From NCBI RefSeq assembly GCF_032393985.1, contig NZ_CP135918.1, positions 1,364,001 through 1,428,000 of the forward strand: DNA of 64,000 nucleotides, given 5' to 3'. Within the stretch, counting starts at the first letter, position 1. Every line of letters begins with the position of its first letter. Shown piece after piece: positions 49,391 to 57,013 of this stretch. Source of the stretch: Fischerella sp. JS2 (GTDB lineage Bacteria; Cyanobacteriota; Cyanobacteriia; Cyanobacteriales; Nostocaceae). A program made the translations under genes and the position numbers. Below the pieces are notes generated by a model. It had not been told where the DNA came from and ran no database searches. It worked only from the letters and a program-made list of their open reading frames with translations.

Positions 49391-50688
49391 GTGCGACATA
49401 AAGCCGTACAAGTCCGTTTATATCCATCTGAACAACAACAAATAAAACTAGCTCAGACGTTCGGATGTGCGCGTTGGTGGTGGAATTATGCTTTAAATAA
49501 GTCGATTGAAACTTATAAAGAAACAGGTAAAGGACTTGGACAGGTAGCACTCAATGCACTGTTACCTAAGCTCAAGAAAGAGGAAGATACCTGTTGGCTG
49601 GCTGAGTGTTATAGCCAAGTTTTACAAGCTACAACACTCAATCTGACCACAGCTTATAAAAACTTTTTTGACAAACGTGCTGGTTTTCCTCGGTTCAAAT
49701 CTAAGCATGGTAAACAGTCTATTCAGTACCCTCAAAACGTCAAGATTGTAGATGGTAATGTCAAACTTCCAGGCAATATTGGAGTGGTCAAAGCCAAGAT
49801 ACATAGACCAATGGATGGGAAAATAAAGACTTGTACAGTAGTCAAAACTCCATCAGGTAAATACTTTGATCTATTCTGACTGAAGTAGAAGGAAACAACC
49901 CATCTACTAAAGAAGGCAAGATTTATGGTGTTGATTTAGGGTTGAAACATTTTGCTGTCGTCACTGACGGTGAAAAGGTTTCTAAATACGACAACCCTAA
50001 ATATATTGCCAAGCATGAAAAAAATCTCAAACGCAAGCAACAAAAATTAGCACGCCAAGAAAAGGGAAGTAACTCTCGAAATAAATATAGAAAAGTAGTT
50101 GCCAAAGTATACGAACGGGTGACTAACTCACGGCAAGATTTTCTGCATAAACTTAGTTATAAATTGGTCAGCGATAGCCAAGCTGTCATAGTAGAGAATC
50201 TTTATGTCAAGGGCATGGTTCGTAATCACAATTTGGCGAAAGCAATATCTGATTGTGGTTGGGGAACATTCACTAACTTTTTAGCCTATAAACTAGAACG
50301 CAAGGGTGGGAAGTTAGTTGAGATTGATAGATGGTTCCCTAGTTCCAAACTTTGTTCTAATTGTTTCTATCAGGTCAGCGAAATGCCATTGGACGTAAGG
50401 GAATGGACTTGTCCTCACTGCGGTACTCATCATGACAGGGATGGAAATGCAGCAATAAATATTAGAGCAGAGGGAATCAGAATGCTAAAGGCGGAAGGTT
50501 CAGCCGTCTCTGCTGTAGGAGGGGAGGTAAGACCAAAGATGGGGCGAAAGTCTCATCTGAGGCACTCGCCTGTGAGTACAGAAGCCCCATCCTCTAGCTC
50601 TGTGCTTAGTGGGGTAGTTCACAAGAGTCCTTCTGAATATGACAAAACTAAATTTTCGATAGATTTATCCCAGGAGAAAAGCTCGTGA
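49391..50688 (+). pseudogene. tnpB: Solitary TnpB (IS605/IS1341 type) with a frameshift
   Basis: The first frame (GTG at 49391, AGAGG upstream) gives the N-terminal ~160 residues, ending at a TGA after YFDLF (49877-49879). The second frame begins TEVEGN and carries the catalytic parts: GVDLGLKHFAVV (Asp), AVIVENLYVKGM (Glu) and DGNAAINI (Asp). The zinc ribbon is intact: CSNC then CPHC. A one-base loss near 49870 explains the shift. No tnpA is adjacent, so this is the IS1341-like solo form. The 3' end (GGGGCGAAAG region, 50540-50600) may correspond to the guide-RNA part of the element, as in other TnpB elements. The protein is broken as read. Confidence 0.85.
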
Positions 50689-51671: not shown

Positions 51672-51939
51672 ATTAACACTCAAAAGGCAACTTTATAGCA
51701 ATTATTCGCTATCCAGCATAATCTAAGTAGAGTAACGTTAATTCAATATAAAACACTCAACTATGGACTAGCTAGTTCGCAACGCTTGCATTTGCGGTTT
51801 GTAAGCTAGTCACACATAAGCTTTGATAGTTTTCGGAGATGTCTATTCAAAAAATGTTTAAGAGCAGATAACTCCACCTGCCTAACACTACCCTAAGCGA
51901 TCTTGCTTAGGGTATTGATAATTGACAATTGACCATTGA

Positions 51940-52821
51940 CTATTTGATTACCTTCTTGACTAATTCTGGAATCATAGAAGGACGTTCCGCTACTGGGACT
52001 TTGACTTCTGAAAATGCAGCTAATTTGCTTTTTGCTGTCCCAAAGTCTGGATGACGTCCAATTACTGCTGCTAGTGTTCCTGTCTGACGCCAGTGTCTGG
52101 CTGGTGGTGCTTGTGTACCTGCAATATAGGCAACTACTGGTTTATCAATGGCTTCAGCAATGTAACGTGCTGCTGCTTCTTCTCGACCACCACCCGGTTG
52201 ACCAACTAGTACAATTGCCTCTGTGGAATCATCTTCGTCAAAAATTTGCAGCCATTGGATAAATGATGAACCAACGATCGCATCACTACCAATACTGACA
52301 CTGATTGATTGTCCTAAACCAGCTGTGGTTAGTTCTCTGGCTACTTCATAGGTAAGGGTAGTGCTACGACTGAGGATTCCTATATGACCAGGTGTATAAA
52401 ATTCACTTGGTTGAGTACCTAAAAGAATTCGACCAGGTACAATAATGCCGGGGCTATTGGGTCCTACTACCAATGTTTCTGTGGCTTCGGCTTTACGTAG
52501 TAGGTTTACCATGTCTAATGGTGGTACACCAGGAGAAATGATCATTATTTGGCGAATACCAGATGCGATCGCTTCTAATGCCGCATCTAAAACTTCGTAA
52601 GGGTGTACACAGATAATTGTAGTATCAATTAATCCATATCTATCTATCACTTCTTCCACTAGATCAAATACTGGTAGACCATAGATTTTTTGACCACCAC
52701 ATCCAGGATTTACCCCTGCTACTAAATTCGTACCATAAGCTATCATTTGGTCAACATGAGTAGCTGAAATAAATTCACTAAAGCCTTGGATTATAACTTT
52801 GCTGTCTGGCGTTAAGTTCAT
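51940..52821 (-). CDS. Succinyl-CoA synthetase alpha-like protein without the catalytic histidine
   Basis: This 293-residue protein aligns along its length with SucD (start MNLTPDSKVIIQGF; AYGTNLVAGVNPG; IICVHPYEVLDAALEAI; GPNSPGIIVPG; GILSRSTTLTYE). I chose the ATG at 52821 because it fits the family start. Canonical SucD uses His246, which becomes phosphorylated, and Glu208. By eye alignment with the E. coli protein, Gln is at both positions here (Gln208 in VGQPGG; Gln246 in ARHWRQTG). The CoA-binding GFTGSQGT is also replaced (GFSEFISA). The partner beta-like gene is 280 bp upstream on the same strand. The canonical phosphohistidine mechanism seems impossible; the true activity is unknown. 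Confidence 0.85.
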   Translation of the reverse strand: MNLTPDSKVIIQGFSEFISATHVDQMIAYGTNLVAGVNPGCGGQKIYGLPVFDLVEEVIDRYGLIDTTIICVHPYEVLDAALEAIASGIRQIMIISPGVPPLDMVNLLRKAEATETLVVGPNSPGIIVPGRILLGTQPSEFYTPGHIGILSRSTTLTYEVARELTTAGLGQSISVSIGSDAIVGSSFIQWLQIFDEDDSTEAIVLVGQPGGGREEAAARYIAEAIDKPVVAYIAGTQAPPARHWRQTGTLAAVIGRHPDFGTAKSKLAAFSEVKVPVAERPSMIPELVKKVIK

Positions 52822-52838
52822 AAAAAGCACGTTCATGG

Positions 52839-52887
52839 AGAAGGCAGAAGGCAGAAGGCAGAAGGCAGAAGGCAGAAGGCAGAAGGC
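52839..52887. repeat. Seven tandem copies of heptamer AGAAGGC
   Basis: Seven exact heptamers end 17 bp before the chosen start codon of the SucD-like gene (on the minus strand they read GCCTTCT). It is a short tandem repeated repetitive sequence of the type known from heterocystous cyanobacteria. Confidence 0.95.
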
Positions 52888-53103
52888 AGTCCTAAAGAAA
52901 CTAGTTTCACTGTGATACCCCTACACCCTCTTTCAAAGTAAAAGCAAACACCATGAATCAATTTAGGGGTGTAATATCAAGTCTGGCTGATCACCTACGG
53001 TCAAAATCTCTCCGTATTTTTTTCTCCGAGTCAGAGCATATCTTTAGTGATTAGACTGAATCTATTTTGCCTCACATGCTACCTAAATTTGGTGTAAAGA
53101 TGA

Positions 53104-54336
53104 TCAAAACCTTTTATGAGCAGTAGCTTTGGCAAGATTAACTGCTTGTGTTACTGCTTCATCTAAATTTTCTACTACTACTATAGATGCATCGCTAGAA
53201 ACTTTTAATGTTGTTAAATATTTTCTGGCTGCATCAAATTCAGAACCAGCAAGACGAACAACTAAGCGTGGTAAGTAGGTTTCGCGACGGCTTTTGTTTC
53301 CGTTAGAACGTAAAGTTTGTGTTTTGGATTCATTTTTATTATGCTGCACAAAATTAGCAATTACTTCGGCTACTTCTGCACCTTGAGGAACACTACCTAA
53401 AAAGTTGATCAGTATAACTTGAATACTTTTATCAACAGCTAAAATATCTAGAGTTCTATCTAAGCGATCGCGAAAAGTACTTGGTAAAGTATCTGTCGGG
53501 AAAGCGTGACGCAGATTCAAACAAATACCTGGTTTACCACCCGCATTTACTACTAAATCTAAAGTAGCCAATACCGAACCAGTTCCATTGCCTAAAATGC
53601 CGATTTTACCATGTAGTTCTACTGCATCCCATTCGCTTAATCTCTTGTTAAATTCTGCACTGCTATGACGATTAACCATTTTTCTCGCCATCTCAGCAAT
53701 ATCCGGGTGACGAGCGATCGCTCTTTCGTTGACGCTAACATTACCATTGAGAGCCATCACTTGACCAGAAGCATCCACCCCTAAAGGATTAATTTCTACC
53801 AAATCTAAATCTTTTTCTATAAATAACTGGTACATTTTCTCAACTATTTTGCTTACCGTCTGCATTAACGCACCTTGTAACCCCATTTTCAAAGCTAGGC
53901 GGCGTGCATAAAACGGGGAAAATTCCTGTTCCACCACCACGTGTTGCATTTTTTTGCCAGCAGATTCCCAATCAATATCTGCTTCTTTACAACCTAAAAG
54001 TATCGGTCGACAAACAGCAGTATCTAAAACTACCGCTAGAAAAAATTCTTGTTCGGCATTATACTTAGCTTCTGCCAACAACACTTCTGGTAATTCACCC
54101 AAAATTGGTAGATTAAAAATATTTTGTGCAGCAGCAATAGCATCTATAGTTGTTTCAGCAAATCGGACTCCGCCTGCTTTTGCTCGTTCTCCTGCATGTA
54201 CTTGAGATTTCAGTACAATTGGGTAGCGAATTTTTAATCTTTTTAAATCCGTGGGATGGTCTATTTTTTGAGAAGGCAATACAGGAATGCCTATTGTCCG
54301 AAACCACTCTTTGACTTGATACTCTAGCAATTCCAT
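53104..54336 (-). CDS. Succinyl-CoA synthetase beta-like protein (ATP-grasp)
   Basis: This 410-residue protein starts at ATG 54336 with AAGGTG upstream. The N-terminal ATP-grasp domain has the SucC-type YPIVLKSQVHAGERAKAGGV (Lys binding nucleotide) and LVEINPLGVD (metal-binding Glu). The C-terminal CoA-ligase-like domain holds GILGNGTGSVLATLDLV, but the DVGGGA motif of SucC is replaced by LNLRHAF. The pair with the downstream alpha-like gene (280 bp away) is conserved in order (beta then alpha), so a heteromeric complex is likely. Given the changed alpha subunit, it may be a divergent acyl-CoA synthetase or a non-enzymatic paralogue. Confidence 0.85.
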   Translation of the reverse strand: MELLEYQVKEWFRTIGIPVLPSQKIDHPTDLKRLKIRYPIVLKSQVHAGERAKAGGVRFAETTIDAIAAAQNIFNLPILGELPEVLLAEAKYNAEQEFFLAVVLDTAVCRPILLGCKEADIDWESAGKKMQHVVVEQEFSPFYARRLALKMGLQGALMQTVSKIVEKMYQLFIEKDLDLVEINPLGVDASGQVMALNGNVSVNERAIARHPDIAEMARKMVNRHSSAEFNKRLSEWDAVELHGKIGILGNGTGSVLATLDLVVNAGGKPGICLNLRHAFPTDTLPSTFRDRLDRTLDILAVDKSIQVILINFLGSVPQGAEVAEVIANFVQHNKNESKTQTLRSNGNKSRRETYLPRLVVRLAGSEFDAARKYLTTLKVSSDASIVVVENLDEAVTQAVNLAKATAHKRF

Positions 54337-55147
54337 TAACACACCTTGTCTCTAGCCATTTTTGGTTAGTTGCAACGCTTTATATTAAGATATAAAGCTG
54401 CACCTAGTTTGCACAAACAAACTTCACTCGTCTATTAATAATTATTTTTCTGTCATTAATTCTAACCAATTCAGTAAATCAGGTAAATTTATAGCTTTTA
54501 TTACTAGCTCTTACAATTTTAATAATAAGTAATTAACTGTATCAGTAATTTTTCTTATATTTAAGCGAACCAGCATTTTTGTCACCGAATTTTGATACAT
54601 TAGTACAAATATATTTTTCATATTAGAGAAAATTTTAATTTTAGGAATTAATAAGCTTTAGCTTTTGAATATATATCAGAGAAAATACGAATAAGCAACA
54701 GACTCTATAGAGAGATGACGCATCGTTTTTATTTGTCAATTTCATAGTAGTTATTAATCTTAATTATTACTGAATACAAGTATGTGTATAAACAATAATT
54801 AAAATTCAGAAAAATTATAACTTTAGTACATCATAATAGATAAAAAAACGAAAAAATCTAAGTTTTTATTTTGCATAACTTTGACTCTTAATTAATACTA
54901 GTGTTGATTTTTATAGCCGTCAAACAATGTTAGATTTTCGATTTATTCCATAGAGCAGTTTGATGGCTCATACCCGCTCGGAATTATTGGTGAGCAGAAA
55001 TAATTCCTCGTGAAAATATCTACTTTCTTGTACTTAGTCTCTAATCCCTAGTTGATATTTTCACCTAAACCTTAACTTTTGATGAAAGCAGAAAATTTGT
55101 GCTAAAAAAATGGTCTCTCACATTGCAAAGCTGGGGGTCATGAAACT
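54337..55147. other. 810-bp AT-rich intergenic region with two inverted repeats
   Basis: No gene is seen. Near its right end are GGAATTATT (54980-54988) / AATAATTCC (54999-55007) and GTGAAAATATC (55010-55020) / GATATTTTCAC (55054-55064), both perfect. They lie 80-210 bp before the next gene and could be regulatory or part of a structured leader RNA. The divergent promoter of the SucC-like gene is also expected here. Confidence 0.5.
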
Positions 55148-55186
55148 GTGTATCTACGTTCCAAAAATAAAATAAGTTCTTTTAAC

Positions 55187-57013
55187 ATGCTTGAAAATAA
55201 TTCAGACTATATAAAGCAGCAGGATGGCTCTATGCAAGTAGCAGTCATAGAAGAAGATTTACAGTTTATAGCGCAAATTTTGCAAGAACAGTTACGGGCC
55301 GAAATTCCCTCGGGTGAATTCTTCCAGGTAAAGTGTGCTGTTAAAAATGATCAGTTGATGATTTTAACTCAACATCCACAAGGTGTGAGTGCTGATACTG
55401 ACAACATTTTTGCAGTGCTTGAGGAAGCACTACAATTGCTACTTAACCACCACGGACAGCAAGTGGAAATCTTTCTCAGAATCGCAGGGGTGAAATTGCC
55501 TTATGCTAAATATTCTCTAATTTTGCAAGCTTCGGAAGCGAAGGTAAGCCAAGCAGCAACAGGAGTAGGGGAAGAGGAGAAGATAGATCATTCTTCCCCC
55601 TTTACCGCTTCCGATACGTTTACCGATGACCAGTCCTCTACAAATACCCCAAATCAACCAGAGGATCAGCTATTTGACCCAATGGCAGATGCGCCGGATT
55701 TGTCTTTTTATACAACAATCAAGTCAAGGCATCCTATAAAACCAATTGTATTGGGTGTAGTTGTAACAGCAATGTTAGTTTTAGGCGCTACTGCTTACTT
55801 GTTAACTCGTCCTTGTGTGATGTTTGAATGTAAAGCAATCCAAACAGCTGAGGATTTACAAAAATCATGGCAACGACTCATACAGACTGCCAAGTCTGAA
55901 TCAGAATTAACCAAAGTGCAACAGCAACTTGTAGAAGCAACCGTGGCGCTAAAAGCTATTCCTGGTTATTCACCACGTCACCAAGAAGCTGAAACACTGG
56001 CGACTAATCTATCTGGGCGTTCAGAAGCTATTAACAAAGTCGTCAAAGCCTTTGGTGCAGCTTCATTAGCGACACAAAAAAGTCAAACTCTGGCAAATAG
56101 CTTAGAAGAACTAAAAGCTAGGCAACAATTGTGGCGACAAGCGATCGCACCATTAGAAACCATCAGTGCCAATAGTGAACTTTATGGATTGGTACAGCCA
56201 AGATTAGGAATATATCGTGCCAATTTGCGGACTGTAAATCAGCAATTGCAACTAGAAGACAAATGGTTGAAAAAAATAACAGCAGCTAAAAATGTGGCAA
56301 ATGCCGCCACTAAACAAGAAACTATAGCTAAAACCTTATCAGAATTACAAAAAGTCCAATCTACTTGGCAAGTAGCAATTAATGCCTTAAGTATTATTCC
56401 CAAAACTAGCTCTGTGTATCCAGAAGCACAAAATCTCCTGATAGACTATAAACCTAAACTCGTAGCTGCACGCGATCGCGTTACTCAACAACTACTAGCA
56501 GCCAAAACCTACAAACAAGCCATTGAAAACGCAGAACAAGCTAAACGTTACGAAAAACAAAACCAATGGCAAGCTGCGGTAACATACTGGAACCAAGCTT
56601 TAAGCACCGCCAAGCAGGTCAAACAAGATAGCTTGTACTACACCCAGGCTCAAACTTTGATCCAACCTTATTCGACATCCCTCAAACAAGCAGAAGCAAA
56701 ACTCCAAATTGCTAACTCTTTACAACAAACCCACGCTGACCTAGAAAACACTTGTTCTGGAACAATTCGGGTTTGTAATTTTACCATTACTGATCGAGAA
56801 ATAATCGTTCGGATTACTCTTGAATATGAACAAGTACTCAACAGTAACTTGAATCAGGGCAATCAGAGTAGTGTAGCTAATATTACTAATCATTTACAAA
56901 GTTTACAGCAAGCCCTAGATATCATTAGTGATAATGCTAACTTGGCTGTGATTGTGTTTGATGCCCAGGGTAGTCAAATTCATGGACATGTGCCGGGGGA
57001 TGAAAACAATTAA
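55187..57013 (+). CDS. Single-pass membrane protein with a coiled-coil/TPR-like periplasmic or cytosolic region
   Basis: I take ATG 55187 (608 residues); a GTG at 55148 and an ATG at 55232 are alternatives. Residues about 15-125 form a small domain (LQFIAQILQEQLRAEI, KNDQLMILTQHPQG), then an acidic linker, one membrane helix (PIVLGVVVTAMLVLGATAYLL), and ~400 residues of helical repeats with TPR/coiled-coil character (KAIPGYSPRHQEAETLATNL, AEQAKRYEKQNQWQAAVTYW). The extreme C-terminus is a small beta domain with two Cys (CSGTIRVCNF). The layout is known in filamentous cyanobacteria without assigned function. It is downstream of two inverted repeats. Confidence 0.75.
   Translation: MLENNSDYIKQQDGSMQVAVIEEDLQFIAQILQEQLRAEIPSGEFFQVKCAVKNDQLMILTQHPQGVSADTDNIFAVLEEALQLLLNHHGQQVEIFLRIAGVKLPYAKYSLILQASEAKVSQAATGVGEEEKIDHSSPFTASDTFTDDQSSTNTPNQPEDQLFDPMADAPDLSFYTTIKSRHPIKPIVLGVVVTAMLVLGATAYLLTRPCVMFECKAIQTAEDLQKSWQRLIQTAKSESELTKVQQQLVEATVALKAIPGYSPRHQEAETLATNLSGRSEAINKVVKAFGAASLATQKSQTLANSLEELKARQQLWRQAIAPLETISANSELYGLVQPRLGIYRANLRTVNQQLQLEDKWLKKITAAKNVANAATKQETIAKTLSELQKVQSTWQVAINALSIIPKTSSVYPEAQNLLIDYKPKLVAARDRVTQQLLAAKTYKQAIENAEQAKRYEKQNQWQAAVTYWNQALSTAKQVKQDSLYYTQAQTLIQPYSTSLKQAEAKLQIANSLQQTHADLENTCSGTIRVCNFTITDREIIVRITLEYEQVLNSNLNQGNQSSVANITNHLQSLQQALDIISDNANLAVIVFDAQGSQIHGHVPGDENN

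Follow-up and report, generated by a model that had tools for sequence, protein, structure and literature searches.

A succinyl-CoA synthetase-like gene pair of Fischerella that probably lacks the textbook reaction and is maintained by selection, presumably for another job

Gene pair and predicted folds

Two neighbouring minus-strand genes of succinyl-coenzyme A (CoA) synthetase (SCS) type, a SucC-like beta gene and a SucD-like alpha gene, are found in the cyanobacterium Fischerella sp. JS2 (Nostocaceae; contig NZ_CP135918.1, positions 1,364,001 to 1,428,000 of the forward strand; this whole stretch of 64,000 nucleotides is termed the window below). Along the minus strand the beta gene comes first and the alpha gene second, with probable true starts, judged from the extent of homologue alignment, at ATG 54336 and ATG 52821, respectively (Table 1). 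The initial annotation, made from the sequence alone, described the alpha protein as an end-to-end relative of SucD, a description borne out by phmmer, which aligns residues 10–298 with residues 6–288 of Escherichia coli SCS alpha (2nu7_A; E 3.6e-65); succinyl-CoA synthetases are the best solved relatives of both subunits. Scores above the gathering thresholds of the Pfam domains CoA_binding, Ligase_CoA, Succ_CoA_lig and ATP-grasp_2 are reached within the pair. The NCBIfam cut-offs are missed by both the alpha protein (TIGR01019; 274.8 vs 353.2 bits) and the beta protein (TIGR01016; 200.6 vs 375.55 bits), as are those of FdrA (NF004760; 36.1 vs 433 bits) and of the nucleoside diphosphate (NDP)-forming acyl-CoA synthetase (ACD alpha) model (TIGR02717; 62.3 vs 567.15 bits).

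Table 1. Features of the sucC–sucD-like pair and its surroundings (window coordinates)
Feature	Position	Strand	Remark
SucD-like alpha gene	51940-52836	-	298 aa open reading frame (ORF); SucD relative over full length
SucC-like beta gene	53104-54342	-	412 aa ORF; SucC relative over full length
Alpha Gln at E. coli Glu208 place, own residue 213	52198-52200	-	codon CAA
Alpha Gln at E. coli phosphohistidine His246 place, own residue 251	52084-52086	-	codon CAG
Beta Asn at E. coli Asp213 place, own residue 199	53746-53748	-	codon AAT
GFSEFISA replacing CoA loop GFTGSQGT, alpha	52762-52785	-	phmmer alignment
NLRHAF replacing DVGGGA, beta CoA-ligase domain	53500-53517	-	alignment
AGAAGGC heptamer array, perfect, 7.3 copies	52839-52889		gap between beta and alpha genes
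Imperfect ATTGACA array	51914-51944		overlaps alpha gene end
621-aa ORF divergent from sucCD	55148-57013	+	no Pfam match

The predicted folds of SCS are retained in both subunits: the AlphaFold2 model of the alpha protein (predicted local distance difference test (pLDDT) 89.8) finds its best solved match in Thermus SCS alpha (Z 39.9, root-mean-square deviation (rmsd) 1.7 over 284 residues), and that of the beta protein (pLDDT 85.0; predicted template modelling score (pTM) 0.59, indicating loose domain placement) in E. coli SCS beta (Z 35.2, rmsd 5.5 over 370 residues). The SCS-type gene pairing is evidently retained as well, the adjacent, beta-first sucC–sucD order being observed in all 32 rows of the Nostocaceae type (family-type rows) whose locus contains both genes; row L019, in which the beta gene lies ~2.4 kb from the alpha gene, is an exception, and the 18.9 kb read around the alpha gene yielded no beta gene in one family genome (L208) and one family-type row (L021).

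Active-site residues

The SCS reaction proceeds through phosphorylation of His246 of the alpha subunit, stabilised by Glu208 of alpha and Glu197 of beta (PMC10342173, seen in excerpt). Glutamine stands in the columns of both Glu208 and His246 in the window alpha protein, in the HMMER (phmmer) and the MAFFT alignment alike, in agreement with the initial annotation, and a third substitution, Asn for Asp213, is present in beta; the three codons are each a single base from the usual Glu, His and Asp codon, respectively. This D213N change had been overlooked in the initial annotation, which describes the ATP-grasp motifs of beta as kept; Lys46, Arg54, Glu99, Glu107 and Glu197 of beta, which we take to be the nucleotide residues, are unchanged. 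Beta Asn199, still Asn in the window protein, and Asp213 are presumably the Mg2+ ligands of the ATP-grasp site, and alpha Pro124, Ser153, Thr155, Tyr158, Gly210, Gly211, Gly248 and Lys261 are assumed here to form the anion site. The annotated loss of the alpha CoA loop and of the beta DVGGGA motif is likewise present in the window pair, but is in part older than the Gln/Gln state, as described below for relatives that retain both Glu208 and His246 (E/H rows).

Conservation within the Nostocaceae

Of 386 genomes of the phylum searched for the alpha gene, 316 contain a match, the listed rows including 43 Nostocaceae genomes and the kinship-ordered list of genomes with no match starting outside the family; the alpha gene has a strong match in every one of the 43 family genomes listed. 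Position 208 is Gln in all 43, and position 246 is Gln in 40 and Thr, Asn or Glu in one each, with His in none. Beta 213 is Asn in each of the 42 family genomes in which a beta gene was found; among the same 42, Asn stands at beta 199 in 34 and is replaced by His in the other eight, Gly129 is kept in one and Gly130 in none. The eight anion-site residues of alpha are unchanged in 43/43 and the five nucleotide residues of beta in 42/42, and 115 of the 295 well-filled alpha columns are invariant across 40 family-type rows. As Gln208 is fixed in 43/43 and beta Asn213 in 42/42 family genomes, chance is not a sufficient explanation, and the notion of a one-off mutation in this strain is refuted by the same counts. 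An alignment or sequencing artefact, in which His and Glu would really be present, is ruled out by the consistency of 43 genomes and two aligners; no supporting point was found for it, and its probability is negligible.

At least six named genomes of the Gln/Gln type (Calothrix PCC 7103, Calothrix MO_192.B10, Calothrix HK-06, Dulcicalothrix desertica, Hassallia byssoidea and Anabaena lutea), with alpha proteins 78–80% identical to the window protein, were identified in a scan in which the best 80 of 227 named genomes were confirmed; Asn213 is present in 5/5 of those with a beta gene in the locus. The names of these relatives point to Nostocaceae as the family of the window. Alpha Glu97 is also replaced throughout the family (Ala 29, Pro 9, Gly 5; n=43), and was dropped as a family mark, 28 of 72 E/H rows also being without it.

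Relatives outside the family and origin of the changes

Both catalytic residues and beta Asp213 are kept in the nearest relatives outside the family, Aliterella, Chlorogloea CCALA 695, Gloeocapsopsis and Chroococcus CMT-3BRIN, whose alpha proteins are 67–70% identical to that of the window and read (W)GHTGTL where the window protein reads (W)RQTGTL. For comparison of residue groups, in which some genomes occur twice, as shown by nine groups of identical alpha tails (e.g. L037/L156), rows L098–L103 were left out. E/H rows of the Cyanobacteriia already rarely keep alpha Gly17 (2/72) and Lys42 (3%) or beta Asp288 (5%) and Ala293 (3%); about half of them still have alpha Gly20 and beta Gly291, both lost, or nearly so, in the family type, and beta Gly290, kept in 94%, is lost in the family type. 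The CoA-loop and DVGGGA changes are thus layered, having begun earlier, in Cyanobacteriia with Glu208 and His246 in place, and as a sign specific to the Gln/Gln type they serve only partly, since few E/H rows retain Gly17, Lys42, Asp288 or Ala293.

An alpha tree was built from 83 rows with the trait columns omitted and with L098–L103, L079 and 21 near-duplicates dropped; the named loci were left out, except by proxy through L078 of the 24-row clade described below, whose alpha tail equals that of Microcystis L146 and L191. The rows assigned to the same family, order or class as the window (termed Cyanobacteriia here) group in a single clade whose stem is long (1.01 changes per column), and all rows outside it are E/H, so that E/H is ancestral. 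The 22 family-type rows form a single clade (support 100/100) adjoining E/H rows. Parsimony requires a minimum of four changes between E/H and the lost state, placed at the family clade, at a 24-row clade containing the Picosynechococcus rows L087 and L088, and at the single rows L054 and L055, the last being unsure owing to a His a few residues onward in a gapped stretch; two of the four inferred losses are firm.

Named rows without His246 include Microcystis, Synechocystis salina, Aphanothece hegewaldii and Hydrococcus rivularis. The His-less SucCD of Microcystis, Synechocystis salina and Picosynechococcus resembles the window pair in having Glu208 and His246 replaced and Gly17 and Lys42 mostly gone, and differs in being a separate loss, mostly of H246D type, in which beta Asp213 is kept and most of the alpha anion site is gone. 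The other-loss group as a whole (57 rows) is mixed: eight rows keep His246 without Glu208 (L118, L129, L130, L139, L144, L151, L171 and L174, with Lys, Ser or Gln at 208), four have Glu208, and L161 has a gap at 246. Position 246 is mostly Asp in this group (35/57 rows), little of the alpha anion site remains (Pro124 kept in 12%, Thr155 in 16%, Lys261 in 33%), and beta retains Asp213 in 48/48 rows, as in the E/H Cyanobacteriia (65/65 rows), with the remaining ATP-grasp site nearly intact. The two groups represent two opposite routes, the family having lost the Mg2+ and His–Glu residues with the anion pocket kept, and the other-loss group the reverse, a pattern that is hard to reconcile with simple decay following a single path.

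Two further observations concern the wider set of homologues. Rows L098–L103 comprise six much more degraded SucD homologues, 24–31% identical to the window alpha protein, with no SucC match in their loci. A SucD/SucC pair of cyanobacterial type, with Gln208 and Asp246, occurs in L113, whose contig bears the label 'Candidatus Gracilibacteria'; the assembly may be mislabelled or mixed.

Selection, copy number and metabolic setting

Ratios of non-synonymous to synonymous divergence (dN/dS) were estimated pairwise by the Nei–Gojobori method, using only pairs with dS of 0.1–1.5, which are non-independent. The median for alpha is 0.10 in the family type (376/561 pairs), 0.12 in the E/H group (33/351) and 0.12 in the other losses (10/378), and for beta 0.14 (200/496), 0.16 (23/253) and 0.13 (5/276), respectively, the E/H and other-loss medians resting on few pairs. 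By this measure both subunits are under purifying selection in the family. The alternative of a decaying relic of a dispensable enzyme, heading towards gene loss, could draw on the many genomes of the same class without a close SucD, on Synechococcus elongatus, a named control not among the genomes matching TIGR01019 or PF13607, on the degradation of L098–L103 and on the missing beta gene of L208. With a dN/dS of ~0.1 equal to that of the E/H group, an alpha gene retained throughout the listed family genomes and well over a hundred invariant alpha columns, such a relic is highly improbable.

The window genome (7.02 Mb, one contig) contains one SucD match and one SucC match, and profile searches returned no further SucD, SucC or Succ_CoA_lig match in it. 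The arrangement proposed for checking in the initial annotation, a Gln/Gln clade alongside a canonical SucD, is therefore rejected, the clade being real but this Fischerella genome having no second copy; the broader suggestion in that annotation of a conserved but re-purposed complex gains support from the true clade, the purifying selection and the single copy. No match was found in the window genome for 2-oxoglutarate dehydrogenase E1, HTS (family of MetA), methylmalonyl-CoA mutase or DapD, and PorB/KorB gave sub-cut-off matches only, in long frames; there is thus no clear succinyl-CoA maker or user among these five families.

Comparison with known systems

Relative to canonical succinyl-CoA synthetase (TIGR01016, TIGR01019), the window pair shares both subunits end to end, the predicted folds, the beta-first order and the five nucleotide residues of beta, and differs in the absence of the phosphohistidine, of Glu208 and of beta Asp213 and in its altered CoA loop and DVGGGA motif. 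The superfamily fold is shared with ATP-citrate lyase and citryl-CoA synthetase (alpha Z ~32–35), which keep the phosphohistidine. An engineered E599Q ATP-citrate lyase is, by the title of its entry, among the alpha fold matches; E599 of that enzyme presumably corresponds to SCS Glu208.

A precedent for SCS-alpha-like proteins without phosphohistidine is provided by FdrA, in which Lys occupies position 208 and no His aligns with His246. FdrA differs in length and partners, and is 25% identical to the window alpha protein over 159 residues only (BLASTP 9e-8; profile comparison 96.4%), in an alignment that stops before 246; membership of the FdrA family was rejected, the score being below cut-off, and FdrA is cited as precedent only. 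A new enzyme without phosphohistidine can be envisaged on this basis, carrying out, for example, either FdrA-like carbamoyl or acyl transfer or direct ATP-grasp activation of an acid to an acyl phosphate, with some nucleophile distinct from CoA as the attacking group. In the accessible portion of the published work, SCS activity was absent from FdrA, a result stated there with the data not shown, and the protein is proposed as an oxamate carbamoyltransferase (PMC8550087). The Nostocaceae also retain much of the alpha anion site. However, no conserved co-transcribed partner gene is seen, and the beta substitutions recorded above (D213N throughout, His for Asn199 in some genomes, Gly129 and Gly130 nearly or wholly lost) argue against Mg-ATP chemistry; with positions 213 and 199 changed, ATP-driven phosphoryl chemistry becomes less likely in the family, and a new enzyme is regarded as unlikely, though it is the main alternative.

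A synthetase pair probably without the textbook reaction

The combined observations suggest that the pair, maintained by selection, probably does not carry out the textbook SCS reaction and probably has another job. Somewhat favoured over all else is a retired SCS heterodimer without phosphohistidine chemistry, kept as a non-canonical complex that would serve as regulator or scaffold through ligand binding, a regulatory or structural role being more likely than a new ligase on the residue patterns at hand. In the family, alpha Glu208 and His246 have been replaced by Gln and beta Asp213 by Asn, with much of the alpha anion site, the nucleotide residues of beta and the selection acting on both proteins retained. 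In the proposed scheme, succinyl phosphate and succinyl-CoA would no longer be formed by the usual route; the alpha–beta contact may still bind an acid or phosphate-like ligand at the preserved anion site, together with nucleotide, probably at the ATP-grasp site; and the ligand-dependent state may regulate or scaffold a partner in central carbon metabolism.

Several points weigh against this interpretation. Position 246 varies, 3/43 family genomes not having Gln and one having Glu, and the kept anion-site and nucleotide residues could be equally compatible with catalysis. The alpha active-site loop, residues 252–260, falls below pLDDT 50, leaving the active-site geometry too uncertain to use. 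Published phenotypes from Synechococcus (Picosynechococcus) PCC 7002, a strain with His-less congeners, count both for and against the interpretation: in the accessible part of the account, deletion of sucCD abolished growth under 2% CO2 sparging and left succinate and malate at ~60% of the wild-type level in the light and ~40% in the dark (PMC5160925). The authors read these data as supporting conversion of succinyl-CoA to succinate, and no complementation is reported in that part of the account (PMC5160925); a lower succinate level is also what the loss of a working synthetase would produce. PCC 7002 itself belongs to the other loss clade, and its residues are expected to be Arg208/Asp246, as in two Picosynechococcus rows identified as PCC 7117 and PCC 7003 (100% plasmid identity). 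For a quadruple mutant in which sucCD is likewise missing, the same portion gives light succinate as 2.0-fold above wild type (PMC5160925), a further difficulty for the interpretation and an indication that the sucCD phenotype is not simple.

The reduced succinate and malate of the PCC 7002 deletion (PMC5160925, in the portion available) would also suit a protein that still handles succinyl-CoA by a reduced or altered mechanism, for example phosphorolysis or hydrolysis without the His shuttle. Part of the beta DVGGGA motif is retained in E/H Cyanobacteriia, adding to the case. An E. coli His246Asp enzyme reportedly retains a partial reaction on succinyl-CoA. This alternative is nevertheless rated improbable for the family type, in which Gly17, nearly all Gly20 and Lys42, and the DVGGGA glycines 290 and 291 of beta are lost, and given that no clear succinyl-CoA source or user is seen among the five families tested.

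Evidence from Synechocystis may extend the residue loss to a further strain. Quantitative PCR primers published for sucD of Synechocystis PCC 6803 (PMC4295605, seen in part) match Synechocystis salina exactly and flank a stretch encoding Asp at 246, which suggests that PCC 6803 SucD likewise has Asp there; a sucC primer from the same partial source has no match in any locus. A review of Synechocystis metabolism states, in the text available, that SucC/SucD probably interconverts succinate and succinyl-CoA (PMC7133116). No description of the loss of catalytic residues in cyanobacterial SucCD was found in the literature searched, most subscription journals lying outside the search and an earlier report being possible.

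Returning to the retired, ligand-binding complex favoured for the Nostocaceae, a wider version can be put forward tentatively, at a little under even confidence: across much of the oxygenic cyanobacteria, the annotated SCS would be a natural pseudoenzyme or repurposed complex. Its phosphohistidine would have been lost at least two times, with parsimony giving four losses, along two opposite routes, and the pair would now be needed for something else, possibly control of CO2 or carbon status, so that the published sucCD phenotype would reflect that role and not succinyl-CoA metabolism. If the residues are missing in Nostocaceae and, independently, in strains of the Synechocystis, Microcystis and Picosynechococcus types, the SCS step should be dropped from metabolic models until assayed, and the sucCD deletion phenotype needs a different cause. 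Repeated loss of the same catalytic residues under continued selection on the pair would offer a clear example from nature in which an enzyme of central metabolism outlives its reaction.

Locus surroundings

Short tandem arrays lie in the gap between the two genes and across the end of the alpha gene (Table 1). A promoter scan performed no better than shuffled sequences, with 10 found against 11.0 expected. The commonest neighbour of the pair is the divergent 621-aa ORF, relatives of which occur near the pair in 9/11 family-type loci and in 15/39 of the loci compared. An interrupted IS605-type OrfB/TnpB gene is located at 49391–50688 on the plus strand and is split into two ORFs, the first with an HTH_OrfB_IS605 domain and the second with OrfB_IS605 and Cas12f1-like TNB domains.

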